Of a DNA stretch of 64,000 nucleotides, positions 1 through 38,461 are shown piece after piece. How positions within the stretch are numbered: the first letter of the stretch is position 1; every line of letters begins with the position of its first letter. Origin of the DNA: Vulcanimicrobium alpinum (GTDB taxonomy: Bacteria > Vulcanimicrobiota > Vulcanimicrobiia > Vulcanimicrobiales > Vulcanimicrobiaceae); assembly GCF_027923555.1 (NCBI RefSeq), contig NZ_AP025523.1, positions 930,001 through 994,000 on the forward strand, in the 5' to 3' direction. The notes under the pieces were generated by a model. That model ran no database searches, was not told the DNA's origin, and saw only the letters and a program-made list of their open reading frames with translations. The translations under genes and the position numbers were made by a program.

Positions 1-1025
1 ACGATCGCGCCGGCGCGCGACGCATCGCGCAGCCGCGCTTCGCCGGGTTCGACGTCGCGCGTCGCTTCGATGAGGCCGTCGGTGTAGAGCACCAGCATCG
101 CATCCGGCAGCATCGGGGTCGTGAGTGTCACCCGCGGGAGACGGCCCGGGACGCCGAGCGGCAAACCCTCCGCGGCGAGTTCGGTCAGCGTCCCGTCGGC
201 CGAGCGCAGAAACGGGCGAGGGTGGGCCGCCGATCCGTACGTGAGGAGCGAGGTCACCGGGTCGAAGACGGCGACGAAGGCGGTGGCGATCCGGTCGTTG
301 CCTTCGGCCTGCAGCGTCCGATCCGCGGCATCGAGCATGATCGCCGGGTCGGGATGCACGTGCGCGACCCCGCGCAGGACTTGGCGCAGGTTCGTCATCG
401 TGACCGCGGCGTCGATCCCCGATCCGCAGACGTCGCCGATCGAGATCACGATGCGGCCGTCGACGAGCCGCAGCGCGTCGTACCAGTCGCCGCCGACGCG
501 CGAGGCGTCGCTGGCCGGACGATAGTACGCGTCGAAGGCGAGGCCGGGCGTGCGCGGGAGCGCGTTCGGCAGCGCGGCCTCCTGCAGCGTGCGCGCGATC
601 CGCCGCTCGTGTTCGTAGCGTTGCGACATCTCGTGCAGCTTCAGCGAGAGCCGGCGTCCGCGCATCATCGTCTCGACGCGTGCGGTCAGCTCGACCCGTT
701 CCACCGGGCGCAGCAGCACGTCGTCGATCACGCGCCAGGCGTCGCGCGTGACGAGCCCGACGTCTCGGCGATCGCTGATCAGCAGGATCGGCAGCAGAAT
801 CGGTTCCTGCGCCGCGCGCAGCGCTGCGAGCGCCGACCAGCGTCGATGCAGGGTCAGGCCGTCGACGACGCAAAGGTCGACGCCCGCGTCGATCTCGCCT
901 TCGACGACGTCGTAGCGCTGAGCCAGCAGAGCGGCGAGCAGCCGCTGATTCGCCCGCGCCGCGAGTTGGACGAAGATGCGTTCGCGCGCCGGGCGCGGTT
1001 CAACTGGGGAGGACCAGCGGTTCAT
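1..1025 (-). CDS. Receiver-like domain fused to SpoIIE-type PP2C phosphatase (partial)
   Basis: Partial: the reading frame runs off the left edge of the window, so the C-terminus is missing; 341 codons are visible from ATG at 1025. The first ~120 residues resemble a response-regulator fold (DLCVVDG in the phosphoacceptor position, LLRPVE where a KP is usual), but the acidic pair expected after the first strand is absent, so it looks like a pseudo-receiver. A short helical stretch follows, then a RsbU/SpoIIE PP2C domain with VGGDWYDA, GDVCGSGIDAA and LYTDGLIEA, which carry the metal-binding Asp residues of the family. Such phosphatases dephosphorylate anti-sigma antagonists (STAS proteins); the partner here is not known. 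The start overlaps the KaiC gene by 26 nt, so the two are probably translated together. Confidence 0.85.
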   Translation of the reverse strand, partial: MNRWSSPVEPRPARERIFVQLAARANQRLLAALLAQRYDVVEGEIDAGVDLCVVDGLTLHRRWSALAALRAAQEPILLPILLISDRRDVGLVTRDAWRVIDDVLLRPVERVELTARVETMMRGRRLSLKLHEMSQRYEHERRIARTLQEAALPNALPRTPGLAFDAYYRPASDASRVGGDWYDALRLVDGRIVISIGDVCGSGIDAAVTMTNLRQVLRGVAHVHPDPAIMLDAADRTLQAEGNDRIATAFVAVFDPVTSLLTYGSAAHPRPFLRSADGTLTELAAEGLPLGVPGRLPRVTLTTPMLPDAMLVLYTDGLIEATRDVEPGEARLRDASRAGAI

Positions 1026-2469
1026 CGTCGGTCAGCGGAATGTTCGAGAAGATCGACTTCAACTGGAGCGGCGGCCCGATACGCACCCCCGACGCGGTGA
1101 TCGCGAACTCGCGCACGGTTTTCTCGAAGTCGCTGAGCCGTTTCTTCAACACGCCGATGCCGCGCCGGATTTCTACAGCGCCGTCGCTGACGCGTTCGAT
1201 ATAGCGCAGAAAGATCACGTTGTCGGCCAGATATCTGATCCCGACGTCGGTCACGCGAAAGTTGAGCAAGTCCTTGAGTTCGTCGATCAGGAGCACGGTC
1301 ACGCCGACGTTCTGCAGGTAGCGCCCGAGCGCGTGGATGCGCTCGGAGAGATCGTCGGAGACGGAGATCCGGTAGCCGCTCACGCTGTCGATCATCACGA
1401 TGCGCGTGTCGCGCTCTTCGACGTCGCGGCGGACGATGTTCGCGAATTCGTCCGGGCCGAAGCGGAGCGCTTCGAGTTCCACGACGCGCAGCTTTCCGGC
1501 GGCGATCATCGCGCGCACCGGGATTCGTACTGCCTCGCTGCGCCGGATCAGCGTCTCGGCGCGTTCGTCGAAGGTGTAGATCACGCACGAATCGCCGCGT
1601 CGCGCGGCCTCGACGACGAGCTGGATGCCGAGCGTGGTCTTGCCGACGCCGGTCGGCCCGCTGATCAGCGAGACGGTGCCGCGCTCGATCCCGCCGTGCA
1701 GCAGCGCGTCGAACTCCGCGATCCCCGACGAGAGCGGATGCGGTTCGAACGCCCGCCGGTGCGTCTCGGGGATGAGGCGCGGAAAGACCTTCGCGCCGTG
1801 GCGGTCGAGCGAGAGCGCGTGCATTCCGCCGCGAAACCCCGAGCCGCGAAACTTCGTCACCGCGATCTCGCGGTTGCGCTTGCCGAACCCGAGCTCGATC
1901 ACGCCGTCGGTGATGAATCGCAGATCGTCGTCGGGCGCTTCGCGCGTCGACTCGGAGGTGACGACGACCGAAGCCCCGTTCTCAGCGAGGAAGCGGAGCA
2001 AGGCAAGGACCTGCCGGCGAAATTGATAGGCGTCGGTGGTGAGATGACGCAGGTGCGTCATCGAGTCGACGAAGACGCGGCGCGGCTTCACGCGCCGCAC
2101 CGTCTCGAGGATCCGCGCCGTCGTCGGCTCCGACTCCACCTCGCGCGGGGAGAAGATGTCGTAGGCCTCCGCGTTCGCGAACACGTCGGCGCTCGGGCTG
2201 AGATCGAGCACGTCGACGCCCGCGGCGTCGAACCCCGACCGCTCCGCGTTTGCGCGCAATTCGGCCTCGGGTTCCGCGAAGCTGATGTAGACGACGCGCT
2301 CGCCGCGCTTGAGACCCTCGACCAAGTAGTGCCAGCCGATCGTGGTCTTCCCGCTCCCGGGAAGCCCGCTGATCAGATAGGTACGGCCCGGGACCAACCC
2401 GCCTTCGAGGACTTCGTCCAACCCCTCCACGCCCGTCGAGACCCGACCAGTATTCACAGGGTAGGGCAT
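1000..2469 (-). CDS. KaiC-family protein with two RecA-like ATPase domains
   Basis: 489 aa from ATG at 2469; a longer reading to 2553 exists, but KaiC homology begins at this Met. Two tandem KaiC domains are visible: Walker A GLPGSGKTT at ~35-43 with Walker B Asp at ~135, and GPTGVGKTT at ~271-279 with Asp at ~361. Each has the acidic stretch after the second strand (FAEPEAE ~64-70, FDERAE ~300-305) that contains the KaiC catalytic glutamates. Length and architecture match bacterial and cyanobacterial double-domain KaiC. No kaiA or kaiB is in the window. The gene overlaps the downstream pseudo-receiver/PP2C gene, so KaiC may set the activity of that phosphatase; this is inference. It is divergent from trxB with 66 bp between starts. 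Confidence 0.9.
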   Translation of the reverse strand: MPYPVNTGRVSTGVEGLDEVLEGGLVPGRTYLISGLPGSGKTTIGWHYLVEGLKRGERVVYISFAEPEAELRANAERSGFDAAGVDVLDLSPSADVFANAEAYDIFSPREVESEPTTARILETVRRVKPRRVFVDSMTHLRHLTTDAYQFRRQVLALLRFLAENGASVVVTSESTREAPDDDLRFITDGVIELGFGKRNREIAVTKFRGSGFRGGMHALSLDRHGAKVFPRLIPETHRRAFEPHPLSSGIAEFDALLHGGIERGTVSLISGPTGVGKTTLGIQLVVEAARRGDSCVIYTFDERAETLIRRSEAVRIPVRAMIAAGKLRVVELEALRFGPDEFANIVRRDVEERDTRIVMIDSVSGYRISVSDDLSERIHALGRYLQNVGVTVLLIDELKDLLNFRVTDVGIRYLADNVIFLRYIERVSDGAVEIRRGIGVLKKRLSDFEKTVREFAITASGVRIGPPLQLKSIFSNIPLTDDEPLVLPS

Positions 2470-4905: not shown

Positions 4906-6702
4906 TTACACGTGGAGCAGCGCGTTGCGCTGGTGCAGATCTTCCGTGTACGCCTGCTCGATGAGCGCCGCGTAGCGCCGCTCAACCACGCGCCGCTTCA
5001 CCTTCAGCGTCGGCGAGAGTTCGTCGTCTTCGATCGTCAGGTCGCGCGGAAGAAGCGCGACCCGGCGCACCTGCTCGAACGCCGCCAAGTCGGCGGTGTG
5101 CGTCTCGACTTCGCGGATCACGAGCGTGCGCACGCGGTCGTCGGTCGCCATCGCGGCGGTCGTCATCGCGCCGAGTTCGAGTTCTTTGCGGATGAGATCC
5201 CAGTTCGGCGCCACCAGCACCGCCGGATGCGGCTTGTCGTCGCCGAACGCCATCACCTGACCGACGTAGATCGAGCGTTTGATCGCGGTCTCGATGCGTG
5301 AGGGCGAGATCCACTTGCCGCCGCTCGACTTGAAGAGTTCCTTTTTGCGATCCGTGATGACGAGATGCTCGCCGTCGAACCGTCCGATGTCGCCGGTCTG
5401 GAAGAACCCGTCGGCGGTGAACGGCTGTTCCGCGGGCGGCAATTGGTAGTAGCCGAGCATGACATTGGGCCCCTTGACGAGGATCTCGCCGTCGTGGGCG
5501 ATCTTCACCTCGACGTTGCGGATCGGCGTTCCGACCGTTCCCAATTTGACGTTCGACGGCCGGTTGACGGTGACGACGGGCGACGTCTCGGTGAGGCCGT
5601 AGCCCTCGCAGACCGGAAGCCCCAGCGCGGCGAGCGCGAGCGCTGTGTCGCGGTGCAGCGGCGCGCTCCCGCTCACGAAGTAGCCGAGACGGTCGAGGCC
5701 TAGCGCCGGCTTGATGCGTTTCAGAACGAGCGCCTGCGCGAGCGCGTTCTGCACGCGAAGCACGGGATTGACGAATCCGTCGCGCAGCGCGCGCTCGTAG
5801 GCGACGCCCGCTTCGATCGCCCACGGGACCAGCTTCGCTTTTACGCCGCCCTGGACGCGCGCGTTTCCGACGATGCCGGCGATCAGCCGTTCGAAGATGC
5901 GCGGCACGAACGCGACGTGACTCGGGCGGATCGCCCGGAGATCCTCGAGCAGCCGTTCCGGCGTCGTCACGTAGATCGTCGCGAGGTTGTAGAGATAGCC
6001 GAGCGCGTCGGTGTGCTCGAAGATGTGCGCGAAAGGCAGCACGGAGAGCGCGCTCTCGCCCTCCTTCAAGTCGCTGAGATCGGGGTCGAACGCGTCGTGG
6101 ACGTTGGAGCTGAGGTTGCGATGCGAGAGCATCACGCCCTTCGGCGTACCGGTCGTCCCCGACGTGTAGATGAGCACGGCGAGATCGTCGAGCGCGGTCT
6201 GCGCGGTAAACGTCGCCAGCTGCGAGGGATCGGCGTCGAGCAGGGCTTCGCCCTCGGCGACCAGCGCCTCGATCCCGAGCTCCGTATCGCCCGCGAAGCT
6301 GACCAGCGGCGGCGGCGCGGGGACCGCTTCGCGCACGTGAGCCGCGGCGCCGGCGTTTTCGACGAACGCGAACTTGGTTTCGCTGTTCGCGAAGATGTAA
6401 GCGATCTGGTCCTGGGCGCTCGTCGCGAACATGGGGACGACGACGGCGCCCGCGTAGAGGATCCCGAAGTCGGCGACCAGCCAGTCGACGCAGTTCTCCG
6501 AGAGAATCGCGACCCGATCGCCCCGCTCGATCCCGCGCGCCCGCAGGGCGCAAGCGATCGCGGAGGCACGCCGGTGGACGTCGCCGCTGCTGAGCGCCCG
6601 TGTCGTGCCGCCGTGCCGCTCCGCCAGGGCGATCGCGCGCGGCACGGAGAGCCGCTCGGCGATGAAGGCTGGAAGAGTGGGCAGCGGATCAGGGCGCGTC
6701 AT
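4906..6702 (-). CDS. Long-chain acyl-CoA synthetase (AMP-forming)
   Basis: 598 aa, typical of FadD/FACL enzymes that activate fatty acids with ATP and CoA. The ANL-family P-loop LIYTSGTTGTPKG lies near 177-189, the EGYGLTETSP motif in the middle, and GYYQLPP...FFQTGDIGRFD with ITDRKKELFKSSGGKW marks the hinge to the mobile C-terminal domain. The C-terminal catalytic Lys region SPTLKVKR is present. Start ATG at 6702. It is divergent from the padR beta-oxidation operon and probably feeds it with acyl-CoA. Confidence 0.92.
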   Translation of the reverse strand: MTRPDPLPTLPAFIAERLSVPRAIALAERHGGTTRALSSGDVHRRASAIACALRARGIERGDRVAILSENCVDWLVADFGILYAGAVVVPMFATSAQDQIAYIFANSETKFAFVENAGAAAHVREAVPAPPPLVSFAGDTELGIEALVAEGEALLDADPSQLATFTAQTALDDLAVLIYTSGTTGTPKGVMLSHRNLSSNVHDAFDPDLSDLKEGESALSVLPFAHIFEHTDALGYLYNLATIYVTTPERLLEDLRAIRPSHVAFVPRIFERLIAGIVGNARVQGGVKAKLVPWAIEAGVAYERALRDGFVNPVLRVQNALAQALVLKRIKPALGLDRLGYFVSGSAPLHRDTALALAALGLPVCEGYGLTETSPVVTVNRPSNVKLGTVGTPIRNVEVKIAHDGEILVKGPNVMLGYYQLPPAEQPFTADGFFQTGDIGRFDGEHLVITDRKKELFKSSGGKWISPSRIETAIKRSIYVGQVMAFGDDKPHPAVLVAPNWDLIRKELELGAMTTAAMATDDRVRTLVIREVETHTADLAAFEQVRRVALLPRDLTIEDDELSPTLKVKRRVVERRYAALIEQAYTEDLHQRNALLHV

Positions 6703-6745
6703 CCGATTGTTGAAAACTCCGGCGCAACATGGGTAGGCGGCGGCC

Positions 6746-6780
6746 TTGACGGCTTAACGCTAACCTATTATGAATAATAT
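6746..6780 (+). promoter_or_regulatory. Promoter with overlapping palindrome upstream of padR
   Basis: TTGACG (6746-6751), a 17-nt spacer and TATGAA (6769-6774) form a sigma70-like promoter. The -10 is embedded in ATTAT-GA-ATAAT (6767-6778), an inverted repeat in an AT-rich island that stands out in this GC-rich sequence. A PadR dimer bound there would block the promoter, so autoregulation is likely. A transcription start about 7 nt after the -10 would fall at the first ATG (6781), which would make the mRNA leaderless. Confidence 0.5.
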
Positions 6781-7233
6781 ATGCCAGCGCGGTCAAGGGC
6801 GGCGGCACCCGCTGCCATGGAGGCCCCGGGTCCCCTCGACTCCTCGAAGGGCGATTTTCCCACGGAACTCTGGGGTGACCGCGTCTTTACCGGGGAAGTC
6901 AAAACCAAGACGGTGTTCCCGGCACTGGTCCTGCAGCTTCTGCACGCGCAGCCGGACAGCGGCTACGGCCTGATGCAGCGCATCGCCACCCTCGGCGGTA
7001 TCTTCCCGGTTAACCCCAATACCATCTATCCGCTCCTGCGGCGGCTCGAAGATCGCGGCTTCATCCGCGGCGAGGCCGATGCGTCGACGAAACGCGGTAC
7101 GACGCTGTACCGCATCACCGACGCCGGCGAAGAACGGCTCGAGCGCATCAAGCACAATTTCCGCCCCTACCTCACCAATCTGATCGCGGCGCTGCAACGG
7201 CTGCGCGGCGACTTGTACGGAGAGACGTCATGA
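6781..7233 (+). CDS. PadR-family transcriptional regulator
   Basis: 150 aa if ATG 6781 is used; ATG 6817 (138 aa) is the alternative. The winged-helix core is plain: LVLQLLHAQPDSGYGLMQRI followed by VNPNTIYPLLRRLEDRGFI and LYRITDAGEERL, which is the PadR helix-turn-helix and wing. The ~30-residue N-terminal tail has no family equivalent. It is the first gene of the beta-oxidation operon and overlaps the acyl-CoA dehydrogenase start by 4 nt (ATGA), so it probably represses its own operon in response to an acyl-CoA or aromatic ligand; the ligand is inferred only. Confidence 0.9.
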   Translation: MPARSRAAAPAAMEAPGPLDSSKGDFPTELWGDRVFTGEVKTKTVFPALVLQLLHAQPDSGYGLMQRIATLGGIFPVNPNTIYPLLRRLEDRGFIRGEADASTKRGTTLYRITDAGEERLERIKHNFRPYLTNLIAALQRLRGDLYGETS

Positions 7234-9050
7234 GCACTTACCGCGCTCCGTTGCGCGACATGCAGTTCGTCCTGCGCGAATTGGCAGGCGTCGAAGAGAT
7301 CGCAAAGCTTCCCGGGTACGAAGAGACGACCGACGTGCTCGACGCGATCCTCGACGAAGCGTCGACGTTCGCGACGGAGGTGCTCGACCCGATAAACCAA
7401 TCGGGTGACCGCGAAGGCTGCACGTGGAACGACGGCGTCGTCACCACGCCCAAAGGCTTCAAAGAGGCGTACCACGCCTTCGCGCAGGCCGGCTGGATCG
7501 GTCTGCCGGTGCTCCCCGAATACGGCGGACAAGGGCTTCCGCAGCTGCTGCTCGGCCCGACGCTCGAGATGTGGAACGGCGCGAACGTCGGCTTCGCCAA
7601 CGGTCCGCTGCTCAATCAGGGCGCAATCGAGGCGATCGAGCTATACGCGAACGACGCGTTGAAGCAGGTGTACGTGCCGAAACTCGTAAGCGGCGAGTGG
7701 AGCGGGACGATGTGTCTCACCGAGCCGCAGGCGGGCTCTGATCTCGCGCAGGTGCGCAGCACCGCGACGCCCGAGGGCGATCATTATCGCATCAAGGGGC
7801 AAAAAATCTTTATCACGTTCGGCGAGCACGACATGACGCCGAACATCATCCATCTGGTCCTTGCGCGTCTCCCCGGCGCACCCGAAGGGACGAAGGGCAT
7901 CTCGATGTTCATCGTGCCGAAGGTGCTGGTGAACGCCGACGGGTCGCTCGGCGAGCGCAACGACGTCAAGTGCGCGGGCATCGAGCACAAGATGGGGATC
8001 AATGCGAACCCGACCTGCACGCTCAACTACGGCGAGAGCGGGAACGGCGCGATCGGCTACCTCGTCGGCGAAGCGAATCGCGGGCTCGAGTACATGTTCG
8101 TGATGATGAACGCCGCGCGCTTCAGCGTCGGCGTTCAAGGGCTGGCGATCGCCGATCGCGCGTATCAGCATGCCGTCGAGTACGCGAAGGAACGGATCCA
8201 GTTCCGCGACGCCGCCTCGCGCGATCCGAAGCCCGTCGCGATCATCAAGCACCCCGACGTGCGCCGCATGCTGCTCTTCTGCAAGGCCAACATCGAAGCG
8301 ATGCGGGCGCTCGCGTACGTCACCGCAGCATCCCTCGATTACGCGCACAAAGCGACCGACGAGAACGTCCGCAAGGAACATAAGGCGTTCGTCGAGCTGA
8401 TGATCCCGGTCGTCAAGGGCTGGCTGACCGAGAACGCCCAGACGGTGTGCTCGGTCGCGCTCCAGGTCTTCGGCGGGATGGGTTACGTCGAAGAGACGGG
8501 GATCGCGCAGCAGTACCGCGACGTGCGGATCACGACGATCTACGAAGGCACCACCGGGATCCAGGCGCTGGACCTCATCGGCCGCAAGCTGATCCGCGAC
8601 ATGGGCGCGTCGGCGACGAAGGTGTTCAAACAGATCTCGAAGTTCGCGAAGGAGCTCGAGTCCTCGGAGAATGCCGAGGTCAAAGCGCTCGCGCAGCCGC
8701 TCACCGACGCGACGAAGGCGCTGGCCGATACCTCGCAGTGGATCGGGATGAACGCAATGGGCGATCTGCGCAAGGCGTTCGCCAATTCGGTCCCGTTCCT
8801 GAACTTCTTTGGGATCGTCGCGGGCGGCTGGCAGCTCTTCCGCGGCGCGAAGATCGCCGCCGAGAAGCTCGCGGCCGGCGAGAACGACCCCTACTACACC
8901 GCCAAGATCCAGACCGCGACGTTCTACGCCCACAACATCCTCACGCAGTACGCGTACCTGCAGAAGCAGATCGTGGACGGTTCCGCCGGCGTGATCGCCG
9001 GCGACGACGAGATGTTCGAAGTCGAACGCCGCGCGCTCGCGACCGCGTAA
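7230..9050 (+). CDS. Acyl-CoA dehydrogenase (long form)
   Basis: 606 aa FAD flavoprotein that introduces the 2,3-double bond into acyl-CoA and passes electrons to ETF. Flavin and substrate signatures are seen: MCLTEPQAGSDLAQV, then RITTIYEGTTGIQALDLIGRK with the Glu that acts as catalytic base in this family. It is longer than the ~390-aa short-chain enzymes and has a C-terminal extension of the type found in DmdC-like and related long acyl-CoA dehydrogenases. Second gene of the padR operon, with 10 nt to the next gene. Confidence 0.93.
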   Translation: MSTYRAPLRDMQFVLRELAGVEEIAKLPGYEETTDVLDAILDEASTFATEVLDPINQSGDREGCTWNDGVVTTPKGFKEAYHAFAQAGWIGLPVLPEYGGQGLPQLLLGPTLEMWNGANVGFANGPLLNQGAIEAIELYANDALKQVYVPKLVSGEWSGTMCLTEPQAGSDLAQVRSTATPEGDHYRIKGQKIFITFGEHDMTPNIIHLVLARLPGAPEGTKGISMFIVPKVLVNADGSLGERNDVKCAGIEHKMGINANPTCTLNYGESGNGAIGYLVGEANRGLEYMFVMMNAARFSVGVQGLAIADRAYQHAVEYAKERIQFRDAASRDPKPVAIIKHPDVRRMLLFCKANIEAMRALAYVTAASLDYAHKATDENVRKEHKAFVELMIPVVKGWLTENAQTVCSVALQVFGGMGYVEETGIAQQYRDVRITTIYEGTTGIQALDLIGRKLIRDMGASATKVFKQISKFAKELESSENAEVKALAQPLTDATKALADTSQWIGMNAMGDLRKAFANSVPFLNFFGIVAGGWQLFRGAKIAAEKLAAGENDPYYTAKIQTATFYAHNILTQYAYLQKQIVDGSAGVIAGDDEMFEVERRALATA

Positions 9051-9060
9051 GGACGAATCC

Positions 9061-11166
9061 GTGAACGGAAGCAACGGCGCGCACGCCGACGGCGTGCAGG
9101 TCATTACCCTCGACAATCCGCCCGTCAACGCGCTGAGCTTCGCGTACTCCGCGAGTTTGCTCCGCGAGATCGAGGCGGCGGAGGCGAATCCGGCGCTCAC
9201 GACCGTCGTGATCGCCGGCGCGGGCGGCATCTTCAGCGGCGGCGCCGACGTCAACGATTTCGCGACCGAACCGACGCCCGAGACGAAAACCGTCCGCGAC
9301 GTGATCGCGGCGATCGAACGCGGGACGAAGACGTACGTCGCGGCGATCGACGGCAACGCGCTGGGCGGCGGCTTCGAGCTGGCGCTGGCGTGCGACTACC
9401 GCGTCGGCACCGCGAAGGCGAAGCTCGGACTCCCCGAGATCAAACTCGGCTTGCTGCCGGGCGCCGGCGGTACCCAGCGTCTGCCGCGCCTGCTCGGTGC
9501 GAACGACGCCCTGCAATTGATGCTCAAAGGCGAGACCGTCAAAGCCGCCGATGCGAAGGCGAAGGGGATCCTCGACGAGGTCGTGGAGGGTTCGGCGAAC
9601 GTCGTCGACGCGGCGAAAGCCTATGCCGGCAAGCCGCGCAACCGCATCGCGGAGCGCCAGGCGCAGCTCGGCGTGCAGGGGCTGGGCCTCTTCGCGACGC
9701 CGTTCGTCGTCGCGCAGGCGCACAAGATGGTCCCGCCGGAGACCAACGGCGGGTTCGCCGCGCACAAACTGATCGACGCGGTGCAGGCCGCGATCGAGCT
9801 GCCCTTCGAACGTGGACTCGCGCGCGAAGCGCGGCTGTTCGAAGAACTGGTCCGCTCGGCGCCGTCGGCGGCGCTGCGCCACGTCTTCTTCGGCGAGCGC
9901 GAGCTCTCCAAGATTCCGGGCCTGCCAAAGACCGAGCCGCTCGCGATCGCGAAGGCCGCGGTCATCGGCGGCGGGACGATGGGGACCGGGATCGCGATCA
10001 CGTTCGCGGAGGCCGGGATCCCCGTCATCGTCGTCGAGACGAAGTCGGAAGCGGTCGAAAAAGCGCGCGAGACCGTGTTCGGGATGTTCAAGTATCAGGT
10101 CGACAAAGGCCGGCTCACGCAAGAAGAAGCGTGGACGCGCGCCAACTCGATCACCTTCGAAGAAGCCTACGAGGAGCTCGGCGACGTCGATGTCGTCGTC
10201 GAGGCCGTCTTCGAGTCGATGCCGGTGAAGAAAGAGGTCTTCGGCAAACTCGACGCGCTCACCAAACCGTCGTGCATCCTCGCGTCGAACACCTCGACGC
10301 TCGACATCGACGAGATCGCCTCGGCGACGAGGCGGCCCGACAAGGTGCTGGGCCTGCACTTCTTCGCGCCCGCGAACATCATGAAACTGCTCGAGATCGT
10401 GCGCGGGAAGGCGACGTCCGCCGAAACGCTCACGACCGGGATCGCGCTGGGCAAGAAGCTGCGCAAGGTCGGCGTCGTCTCCGGGAACGCGTTCGGCTTC
10501 ATCGGCAACCGGATGCTCTTCGATTACGAAGCGCAGGCCGTCGAGCTCGCGGAAGAAGGCGTCCCGCTCGAGCGGATCGACAAGGTCATCAAGCGCGACT
10601 TCGGGATGGCGATGGGGCCGTTCGCGGTCGCTGATTTGTCGGGACTCGACGTCTACCACTTCATCTCGCAGTCGCAAGGCGGCGCGCCGCTCGGCCGGGT
10701 TCCGATCATCGCGAAGCTCGTCGAGCAAGGACGTCTCGGGCAGAAGACGATGAAGGGCTTCTTCGACTACGACAAGAGCGTCGGCAAAGGCCGCGAACCG
10801 ATCGCCTCGCCCGACGTCGCGGCGCTGTTCCGCGAACTGGCCGTCGCCGCCGGCGTCCCGCAGCGCGCGGACGTCACCGACGACGAGATCCTCGCGCGCT
10901 GCATCTATCCGCTGGTCAACACCGGCGCCGAACTGTTGCGCACCGGGATCGCGTTGCGCCCCGGCGACATCGACCTGGTGTGGATCTACGGCTACGGGTT
11001 CCCGCCGCATCACGGCGGACCGATGTGGTACGCCGACGAGATCGGCGTGCGGAACGTCGTCGCGGCGATGGAGCGTTTCGGGTGGACGCCCGATCCGCTG
11101 CTCGTCGAGATCGCCCGCAGCGGCGGCACCATCGCGAACTATTCCAAGGAGTTGGCACATGCCTGA
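9061..11166 (+). CDS. Bifunctional enoyl-CoA hydratase / 3-hydroxyacyl-CoA dehydrogenase
   Basis: 701 aa, length and order of the peroxisomal MFE1/FadJ type. An N-terminal crotonase domain holds [15 protein letters not shown] (~53-67) and [16 protein letters not shown]; the NAD domain begins at ~301 with [29 protein letters not shown] and [12 protein letters not shown] (~476) are signature 3-hydroxyacyl-CoA dehydrogenase segments. It hydrates enoyl-CoA and oxidises the L-3-hydroxyacyl-CoA. Start is GTG 9061 with AAGGA 7 nt upstream. The stop overlaps the thiolase start by 8 nt. Confidence 0.93.
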
Positions 11167-12340
11167 GGCGGCGATCGTCTCGGCCGCGCGCACCCCGATC
11201 GGGCGTGCGTTCCGCGGCGCTTTCAATCAAACGCACGGTGCGACGATGGCGGGTCACGTCATCGAGCACGCGGTGCAGCGCGCCGGCGTCGATCCGTCGG
11301 AAGTCGAAGACGTCGTGCTCGGCACCGGACTGCCGGAAGGCGCGACCGGCCACAACATCGGGCGTGTCGCCGCGCTGCGCGCGGGGCTTCCGCTCTCGAC
11401 CGCCGGGACCACGATCAACCGCTACTGCGCGTCGGGCCTGCAGGCGATTTCGACGGCCTCGCAGCGCGTCATCGTCGACGGTGCGAAGGTGATGGTCGCG
11501 GGCGGCGTCGAGTCGATATCGCTGGTGCAGAACGAACTCAACATGAAGTCGTTCAGCGAAGAGTGGATCATGCGCCACGATCCCGACATCTACATGCCGA
11601 TGCTGCAGACCGCCGACAACGTCGCAAAGCACTACAAGGTCTCGCGCGAGGCGCAGGACGCGTACTCGCTGCAGTCGCAGCAGCGCACCGCGGCGGCGCA
11701 GGCCGCCGGCAAGTTCGACGCCGAGATCGTCCCGCTGCCGACCTGGAAATACGTCGAAGACAAGGCGACCGGCACGTTCACCGAAGAGTTCGTCACGCTG
11801 ACGAAGGACGAAGGCAACCGTCCCGACACGACGCTCGAAGGGCTCTCCTCGCTCAAGGGCGTGCTCTCGAAAGATTCCTCGATCACCGCCGGCAACTCAT
11901 CGCAGCTCTCCGACGGCGCGGCGGCGGTCGTCGTGATGGACGCCGACGAAGCGCGCAGCCGCGGGATCCAGCCGCTCGGCTTCTATCGCGGGATGGTGGT
12001 GCGCGGTTGCGATCCCGGCGAGATGGGGATCGGGCCGGTCTTCGCGATCCCCGAGCTCCTCAAGCGTCACGGTCTCACGATCGACGACATCGGCTTGTGG
12101 GAGCTCAACGAAGCGTTCGCCGTGCAGACGATCTACTGCCGCGACACGCTGGGGATCCCCAACGAACGCTTCAACGTCGACGGCGGTGCGATCTCGATCG
12201 GCCATCCGTACGGCGTGAGCGGCGCGCGCATGGTGATGCACGCGTTGATCGAGGGCAAGCGCCAGGGCGTCAAGCACGTCGTCGTGACGATGTGCATCGG
12301 CGGCGGCATGGGAGCCGCCGGCCTCTTCGAAGTCGCCTAG
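11159..12340 (+). CDS. Acetyl-CoA acyltransferase (thiolase)
   Basis: 393 aa, standard thiolase length. The nucleophilic Cys is in [11 protein letters not shown] (C90), the GHPYGVSG loop carrying the catalytic His is near 348, and the second Cys is in [15 protein letters not shown] (C379). It cleaves 3-ketoacyl-CoA to acetyl-CoA and a shortened acyl-CoA, the last step of the operon. Start ATG lies inside the end of the preceding gene. The stop overlaps the end of the convergent RsbW-like gene by 4 bp, so no terminator space exists between them. Confidence 0.93.
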
Positions 12341-12756
12341 TCACCCCTCGACGAGCGTGACGCGGCATTGCGCCGCACCGGCAGGTCGACGACGACGCGC
12401 GCGCCGGCGCCGGGCGTGTTCTCAATCCGCACCCTCAGCGCGAGGGCTTCGACCAGAAACAGGCCGCGGCCGCCGGTGGCCGCGGCGTCGGGGACACGGC
12501 GCAGCGATGGGATTCCGGGACCGCGGTCGGCGACGATAAGCGTCGCACCGGCTCCGCACCAAGAAACGTGCAGGCCGATCGCGCCGGGAGCATGCTTCAC
12601 GACGTTGCCCACGAGTTCGCCGACGATCAGCTCGACGGCGTCGAGGTCCGACGCTTCGTCCGCTTGGGCGGCCAGGAACGAACGGATCGCACGGCGCGCG
12701 CTGAGCGCTTCCCGAGCATCCGGGGCAACCATCGACCACTCCGGTGCGTAGGTCAT
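12337..12756 (-). CDS. RsbW-like anti-sigma serine kinase (HATPase)
   Basis: 139 aa GHKL-ATPase of the RsbW/SpoIIAB type. The N box [10 protein letters not shown] (~50-59), G1 box DRGPGIP and G2 box [11 protein letters not shown] are all visible. Proteins of this size either sequester a sigma factor or phosphorylate a STAS-domain antagonist. No sigma factor or antagonist is adjacent; the STAS-like gene at 38084 and the PP2C gene at the left edge of the window are possible partners, by inference. Confidence 0.85.
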
Positions 12757-38030: not shown

Positions 38031-38083
38031 GTTCTCGGGCGTACATTCGGGAGACCGACGATCTCTGCCGAGGAGTGTTTTTC

Positions 38084-38461
38084 GTGTATGCACCCCAGCC
38101 GCTGGCCGTTCCCCGCCCGGTATCGCTTCGGCTGATCGGCGTGCTCGATGACGATCTCGTGCGTTCGTTCGCGGCGCTGGAGCGCGGGATGTCGGGCTTC
38201 GCGGGCGCGACGGTGATCGTCGACGTGCGCGATCTGCAGATCCGCGACGAGGCGGAGATGGACGCGCTGGCCGGTGCGATCTGCGCGGCCCGTGCACAAG
38301 GACGCGACGTTCGGCTCGATGCCCGGACGGTGCCGTGGCGCCGCGTGCTCAAGAAGAATCTCTCCGCCCAGCCGCCGGTCGATTCGGCACTTCGTTCCGA
38401 CGTGCGCCGCACCGCGATCATCGCGCACAGTGCGCAGCCAAGCAAGCGCATCCGCAAGTAA
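38084..38461 (+). CDS. STAS-like (anti-sigma antagonist fold) protein
   Basis: 125 aa from GTG 38084 with CGAGGAG 8 nt upstream; GTG 38075 would leave no spacing for that site. The core PVSLRLIGVLDDDLV, GATVIVDVRDLQIRDEAEMDAL and AQGRDVRLDARTVP follows the beta-beta-alpha order of STAS domains. The usual phosphorylated Ser is not evident, since the loop reads IRDEAE. It could still be an anti-sigma factor antagonist that pairs with the RsbW-like kinase at 12337, which is speculation. The array of 11-bp repeats precedes it. Confidence 0.55.
   Translation: MYAPQPLAVPRPVSLRLIGVLDDDLVRSFAALERGMSGFAGATVIVDVRDLQIRDEAEMDALAGAICAARAQGRDVRLDARTVPWRRVLKKNLSAQPPVDSALRSDVRRTAIIAHSAQPSKRIRK

Follow-up and report, generated by a model that had tools for sequence, protein, structure and literature searches.

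In Vulcanimicrobium alpinum, the gene of a two-domain KaiC ATPase overlaps the next gene, whose product joins an N-terminal pseudo-receiver (pREC) to a SpoIIE-type PP2C phosphatase and an RsbW-type HATPase domain, and comparison of relatives indicates, at the level of sequence, that this PP2C is a rare output swap of a widespread KaiC+pREC pairing. KaiC with a receiver-like partner has already been described; the phosphatase/kinase output in Eremiobacterota is unreported in the literature searched, where we found no report of a PP2C or partner-switching output for KaiC. Our preferred reading, to which we give somewhat better than even credence, is that an ATP-driven KaiC ring would act on a partner-switching phosphatase/kinase by way of the pREC domain and the linker that follows it.

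Gene overlap and domain architecture

The window, by which we mean the whole 64,000-nucleotide stretch of DNA analysed, belongs to a genome of 3.51 Mb in a single contig (G000:C1 in our coordinates), which was searched by family and by stretch. Both genes lie on its minus strand, with the following features:

Window 1000..2469, minus strand: kaiC-like gene, 489 aa, two PF06745 matches
Window 3..1025, minus strand: part of the pREC-PP2C-HATPase gene inside the window (first 341 residues)
G000:C1:929445-931025, minus strand: whole pREC-PP2C-HATPase gene, 526 aa, running past the window start
Window 648..986, minus strand: pREC domain, residues 14-126, with the acidic pair and Lys replaced and D55 kept
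Window 561..647, minus strand: alpha-helical linker between pREC and PP2C, part of predicted helix 110-155
Window 3..461, minus strand: SpoIIE/RsbU-type PP2C (PF07228), residues 189-371, of which 189-341 are inside the window
Window 1000..1025, minus strand: 26-nt overlap between the kaiC 3' end and the start of the phosphatase gene (ATG at 1025)

An earlier note on this DNA had read here a two-domain KaiC whose gene overlaps by 26 nt that of a receiver-like/SpoIIE-type PP2C protein. The 489-aa product indeed carries two PF06745 domains (Pfam, E 4.4e-74), CI at about residues 10-231 and CII at about 246-466, each preserving the Walker A Lys and one catalytic Glu, and it matches KaiC in the PDB at E 2e-52. 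The overlap is borne out by the phosphatase ATG at 1025 and the kaiC end at 1000, and recurs at identical length in the relative G137. Both domains of the second product were found, but its gene is cut by the window, and the full 526 aa adds an RsbW-type HATPase, giving the order pREC, long helical linker, SpoIIE-type PP2C and C-terminal HATPase. Directly downstream of the phosphatase gene and outside the window lies a gene encoding an HTH (Cro-type) and a metallo-beta-lactamase fold (L006:10607-11446, minus strand), whose start shares 1 nt with the phosphatase stop codon; G137 has a counterpart, 84% identical, in the corresponding position downstream of its own phosphatase gene (L069:886-1743).

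The PP2C (Pfam PF07228, residues 189-371, E 3.7e-39) is of the SpoIIE/RsbU type and carries the metal-binding Asp motifs: GDVCGSG and YTDGL fall within the Pfam match, GGDWYD immediately precedes it, and the DD motif (DDVAV) lies slightly past the window edge. The HATPase_c_2 domain (PF13581, residues 388-493, E 2.3e-13), above the Pfam cut-off and under those of NCBIfam, has the N, G1 and G2 boxes of an RsbW-type kinase domain (ELVGN, DRGPGF and GRGLYI), and could have another substrate. None of the four full-length pREC-PP2C-HATPase proteins has lost a motif of either domain. Across the 526 aa of the window protein, Pfam found neither a STAS domain, as fused C-terminally in Rv1364c, nor HisKA, the SpoIIE and HATPase_c_2 domains being found instead.

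The N-terminal domain is a pseudo-receiver

Residues 1-126 of the phosphatase protein match no Pfam family at E <= 1. The structure prediction proposed in the earlier note returned a receiver fold (AlphaFold2, 53 sequences; five strands, pLDDT 92-98 over residues 11-130), which structural comparison aligns with RitR (Z 14.9, rmsd 2.0, 112 residues) and PleD (Z 14.4), and in which the last helix, spanning residues 110-155, continues as the linker; compared as a whole chain, the model has RssB and Rv1364c among its closest structural matches. We use the model for pREC and linker alone because the PP2C part, window-truncated and with few homologues, is unreliable. An R-x-L-S linker motif follows pREC in 44/76 partners only, and we therefore claim no universality for it.

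By the definition in PMC12632262, the domain is a pseudo-receiver. As the earlier note had stated, it lacks the acidic pair: the CheY D12 position is hydrophobic, as in nearly all of the 77 pRECs compared, and the D13 position, acidic in about 50 of the 77, is Ala22. With Arg106 at the conserved-Lys position, which is variable among the 77, the acidic pair plus Lys of canonical receivers is replaced in the window protein, and the pocket, whose incompleteness the note had staked its proposal on, is incomplete. The phospho-acceptor Asp is kept (D55 in the window protein, 75/77), as is Pro107 (77/77). Because the metal-binding pocket has been lost, we read pREC as a protein-protein adaptor and not as a phosphorylated receiver. 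It seems improbable to us that D55 is phosphorylated by a histidine kinase or small phosphodonor, with KaiC as the output or a passive neighbour. The near-universal D55, the frequent Thr/Ser at the T87 position of pRECs and the CheY-like receiver gene found between kaiC and the pREC gene at many loci would fit such phosphotransfer, but the incomplete pocket of the window protein, with its three replaced residues, weakens the case, and no histidine kinase gene was seen directly adjoining the Eremiobacterota pairs.

KaiC phosphosites and the absence of KaiB

KaiC residues are numbered after the S. elongatus sequence, and the key positions match PDB alignments. The S431/T432 equivalents of the window KaiC are Arg/Tyr, so that the phosphorylatable sites of the KaiABC oscillator are missing. 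Arg at the S431 position is found in the window KaiC alone; Ser occupies it in 71/75 relatives and is retained in the PP2C-clade KaiCs of G137, G116 and G107. Tyr occupies the T432 position in 69/75, the window KaiC included, and Thr or Ser the T426 position in 74/75. These residues bear on whether the PP2C might be the phosphatase of KaiC itself, forming with CII autophosphorylation a two-protein phospho-switch or timer. The adjacency of the two genes and the Ser and Thr/Ser so widely kept at the S431 and T426 positions would suit such a pair, which we nonetheless consider hardly likely. The loss of the phosphosites in the window KaiC weakens it, the PP2C is fused to an RsbW-type kinase, and STAS proteins are the normal substrates of SpoIIE-type PP2Cs; moreover, since the KaiC family pairs mostly with histidine kinases, a phosphatase is not needed for the KaiC cycle.

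The earlier note had seen no kaiA or kaiB near kaiC. KaiB (PF07689) is absent from all seven pair-bearing or related genomes searched (the own genome and six others, some of them incomplete), and the Synechococcus control was detected. KaiA is reported in cyanobacteria only (PMC5520375). Because kaiB is absent and S431/T432 are Arg/Tyr, a phospho-clock is unlikely, and a clock function for the window KaiC is unsupported. We regard a timing system, circadian or hourglass, with sigma-factor partner switching as its output as very unlikely: KaiC homology and the hourglass proposed for the histidine kinase form of the pair in Ramlibacter (PMC3164672) speak in its favour, against which stand the lack of KaiB, the lost phosphosites and the absence of any evidence of rhythm.

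Conservation within Eremiobacterota

In a set of 148 genomes from the phylum, orthologues of the window KaiC, at 57-74% identity, occur in G066, G137, G116, G107 and G130, which all belong to the same family. The earlier note had made conservation of the gene order in relatives a test of its proposal, and the order is kept: the next gene is pREC-PP2C in 6/6 genomes, our own included, with a 26-nt overlap in our own and G137, a 4-nt overlap in G107 and G130, and a gap of 3-6 nt in G116 and G066. Contig ends leave the phosphatase genes of G137 and G116 incomplete and divide the KaiC of G130. In the more distant G018 of the same phylum, a KaiC of 49% identity adjoins a pREC-PAS-histidine kinase.

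In another family of the phylum (G017 and G051; L074 and L076), a KaiC of 34% identity is followed within 1-7 nt by a pREC-bearing protein of 622-649 aa, and these loci are another branch of the KaiC+pREC pairing. Elsewhere in the phylum, KaiCs of 27% identity (L083, G028:C1:861000-879000, 6530-9908; L082, G008:C264, 7938-11675) have PP2C neighbours without pREC, a PocR-PP2C-HATPase (20-nt overlap) and a PAS-PP2C-HATPase, possibly a second, independent KaiC-PP2C coupling.

The pairing across bacteria and archaea

A KaiC-alignment scan of 85,000 species genomes gave the best 80 loci, a biased sample since these are the best hits, from cyanobacteria, Ktedonobacteria and other Chloroflexota, haloarchaea, Nitrospirota, Bacteroidota, Armatimonadota, Myxococcota and Pseudomonadota. 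Tested with a pREC profile built from the Eremiobacterota proteins, the neighbours of KaiC include a pREC gene in 71 of the 72 testable distinct loci at about 39% identity or more, the exception being L108; for this count, L152 and L158 end at a contig edge, L088 duplicates L070, and L130 was counted in after its pREC frame had been confirmed directly downstream. L155, marginally below the 39% line, also has a pREC gene, and no pREC gene adjoins nine others, of 34-38% identity (Rhizobium, Sphingobium, Opitutaceae and others). Outside the scan, two KaiCs encoded on plasmids, of Acaryochloris and Haladaptatus, have pREC genes nearby. Distance matrices of KaiC and pREC correlate (r 0.86, 0/2000 permutations), which is a parallel divergence that also reflects shared ancestry and joint transfer and fits co-evolution and common descent alike. 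Chance adjacency of an abundant PP2C-HATPase gene and an unrelated kaiC is a reading of negligible probability, which we reject: such genes are very numerous throughout the phylum, but kaiC has the same orthologous pREC-bearing neighbour in all six Eremiobacterota genomes, and 71/72 relatives, bacterial and archaeal, likewise have a pREC gene beside it.

The arrangement of the pair varies among these loci. Throughout the haloarchaeal group, including Halorubrum, the KaiC and pREC genes are divergent neighbours (L132, L135-L140, L142-L146). Between kaiC and the pREC gene, L091, L098, L105, L111-L114, L116, L118 and L119 carry a separate gene for a CheY-like receiver (about 122 aa), which the Eremiobacterota pairs lack. 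On the Acaryochloris plasmid pMB01 (L115, L225), two different pREC genes flank KaiC, one on each side, and a single KaiC may serve two outputs there.

Exchange of the output domain

Pfam on the 72 pREC partners finds HATPase_c in 55, HisKA in 48, GGDEF in 9 and SpoIIE in 5, with HisKA_3 (4), EAL (2), HD (2) and Bat/HTH_10 (1) as rarer outputs. The five SpoIIE partners are four Eremiobacterota proteins and one from a Labilithrix MAG (L133), which has the PP2C and no HATPase. When the top candidates per genome were scored, pREC-PP2C turned up in one of 284 Myxococcota genomes, that of L133 itself, and among 301 Chloroflexota genomes there was no convincing case, the candidate loci examined looking like ordinary REC-PP2C.

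In a quick KaiC tree (86 rows, IQ-TREE PMSF, SH-aLRT supports only), the PP2C-type KaiCs of Eremiobacterota form a single clade (SH-aLRT 100) within the histidine-kinase-coupled KaiCs, and the KaiC of L133 is placed elsewhere, in a weakly supported region. From these positions it follows that the output was exchanged at least once; a second exchange, making two in all, is probable from the sequences.

Partner-switching candidates in the genome

The genome holds seven STAS matches, none of them at the kaiC-phosphatase locus, where no STAS gene was found. One belongs to a cassette about 2.4 Mb away from the pair, listed here with the candidate kinase of the window:

About G000:C1:3,363,134-3,364,750 (L218:2635-4248), minus strand: cassette of STAS, RsbW-like kinase and SigB/SigF/SigG-family sigma factor
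Window 12337-12756, minus strand: stand-alone RsbW/RsbA-type HATPase_c_2 gene (PF13581, E 1.7e-13)

The cassette STAS (114 aa, at about G000:C1:3,364,400-3,364,750) carries a DSTG motif, and the sigma factor scores 277.8 bits against a cut-off of 234.35 (TIGR02980). With this rsbV-rsbW-sigB/F cassette the genome contains machinery for such a PP2C to feed, and the cassette is a plausible predicted target of the window phosphatase; many other PP2C-HATPase proteins could feed it too. As possible partners inside the window, the earlier note had pointed to an RsbW-like kinase at 12337 and a STAS-like protein at 38084. The first is the HATPase_c_2 gene listed above; the second, an ORF at 38075-38461 on the plus strand, has zero Pfam or NCBIfam matches and was rejected as a target. 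The proposal that the KaiC-PP2C coupling feeds partner switching thereby loses its STAS partner in the window and keeps the gene order, the PP2C/RsbW-type anatomy and the sigB/F cassette.

Proposed mechanism

In the preferred reading, KaiC would form an ATP-binding double ring, as its family suggests, with its nucleotide state as the input. The neighbour protein would dock onto this ring by its pREC, as the near-universal adjacency and the parallel divergence of KaiC and pREC lead us to infer, and KaiC binding or ATP state may alter the order of the linker such that the PP2C is dimerised or activated, by analogy with the action of RsbT on RsbU. The PP2C would remove the phosphate from a STAS protein of the RsbV/SpoIIAA type, and the RsbW-type domain at the C-terminus would either put it back or bind a sigma factor, as in Rv1364c, the likeliest target being the distant rsbV-rsbW-sigB/F cassette described above. 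In other lineages this KaiC+pREC front end would drive a histidine kinase, or less often a GGDEF/EAL/HD output, the output having presumably been swapped in the Eremiobacterota clade.

Comparison with known systems

The earlier note had seen in the PP2C output a design different from known KaiC systems; the PP2C output stands, as one variant of a widespread pairing of which the histidine kinase form has been known since 2011 (PMC3164672). De Luca et al. described KaiC + Nt_HK (RtaNt) pairs in Ramlibacter and others: in their 'dark-blue' group, the gene after kaiC systematically encodes a histidine kinase whose N-terminus is conserved and receiver-like (RtaNt), the two genes are cotranscribed in Ramlibacter, and the RtaNt domain was proposed to bind KaiC (PMC3164672). 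Those pairs resemble ours in the Tyr at the T432 position (SY/TY class), the absence of kaiB and the receiver-like N-terminal domain in the next gene, and differ in their output, a histidine kinase there and PP2C plus RsbW-type HATPase here. RtaNt and pREC, compared by description (gene position, KaiC class and receiver likeness), are likely the same family.

In RsbT/RsbU and RsbQ/RsbP, too, an N-terminal regulatory domain and a helical linker precede the PP2C, the partner controls the linker, and the front end is exchangeable between PP2C, histidine kinase and GGDEF proteins, in keeping with a published model of linker-based sensor-domain exchange among PPM phosphatases, histidine kinases and GGDEF proteins (PMC12143880). 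Here, in contrast, the partner is a KaiC ATPase, the sensor a pseudo-receiver and the kinase fused C-terminally. KaiC+pREC before histidine kinase, GGDEF and PP2C is consistent with that model, in which it would be a third interchangeable front end.

The same fusion of PP2C and then RsbW-type HATPase is found in Mycobacterium tuberculosis Rv1364c (PDB 3ke6), the top match among solved sequences (E 3.5e-19). The input domain of Rv1364c is a PAS, and a STAS is part of the fusion, whereas our protein has pREC at its input end, lacks the STAS and lies next to KaiC. Pseudomonas aeruginosa RssB (PDB 3eq2, 3f7a) shares the receiver-linker-PP2C architecture, but the solved protein has no HATPase domain, and we know of no KaiC partner of RssB. 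KaiC-like ATPases have reportedly been cast as archaeal signalling hubs by Makarova, Galperin and Koonin in 2017 (cited in PMC5847659); KaiC-family ATPases are there likewise tied to two-component-type domains, and in the text searched we found neither the bacterial/haloarchaeal KaiC+pREC pairing nor a PP2C output. With cyanobacterial KaiABC and its SasA/CikA output, our system has in common a two-domain KaiC and the use of a pseudo-receiver, which in CikA binds KaiB (PMC12632262); it differs in lacking KaiB, the S431/T432 phosphosites and a histidine kinase output, and in the N-terminal position of its pREC.

Implications

Non-cyanobacterial KaiCs are common and their signalling targets largely unknown, and a survey concluded that clocks outside cyanobacteria, if there are any, must use another output pathway (PMC5520375). 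That nearly every KaiC of one clade has a pREC beside it, in bacteria as in haloarchaea, makes pREC the candidate docking partner. As the expected output of the PP2C form is the loss of phosphate from an RsbV-type protein, which is readily assayed, control by KaiC is directly testable. More tentatively, and on balance doubtfully, the KaiC ring may serve as a timer or energy gauge of a general-stress-type sigma factor, through a pREC adaptor that, in bacterial and archaeal evolution, moves freely among outputs by histidine kinase, by cyclic-di-GMP and by Ser/Thr phosphatase. If the proposed mechanism is true, it would be the third natural case, after RsbT/RsbU and RsbQ/RsbP, of a sensor module exchanged between phosphatases, histidine kinases and diguanylate cyclases.
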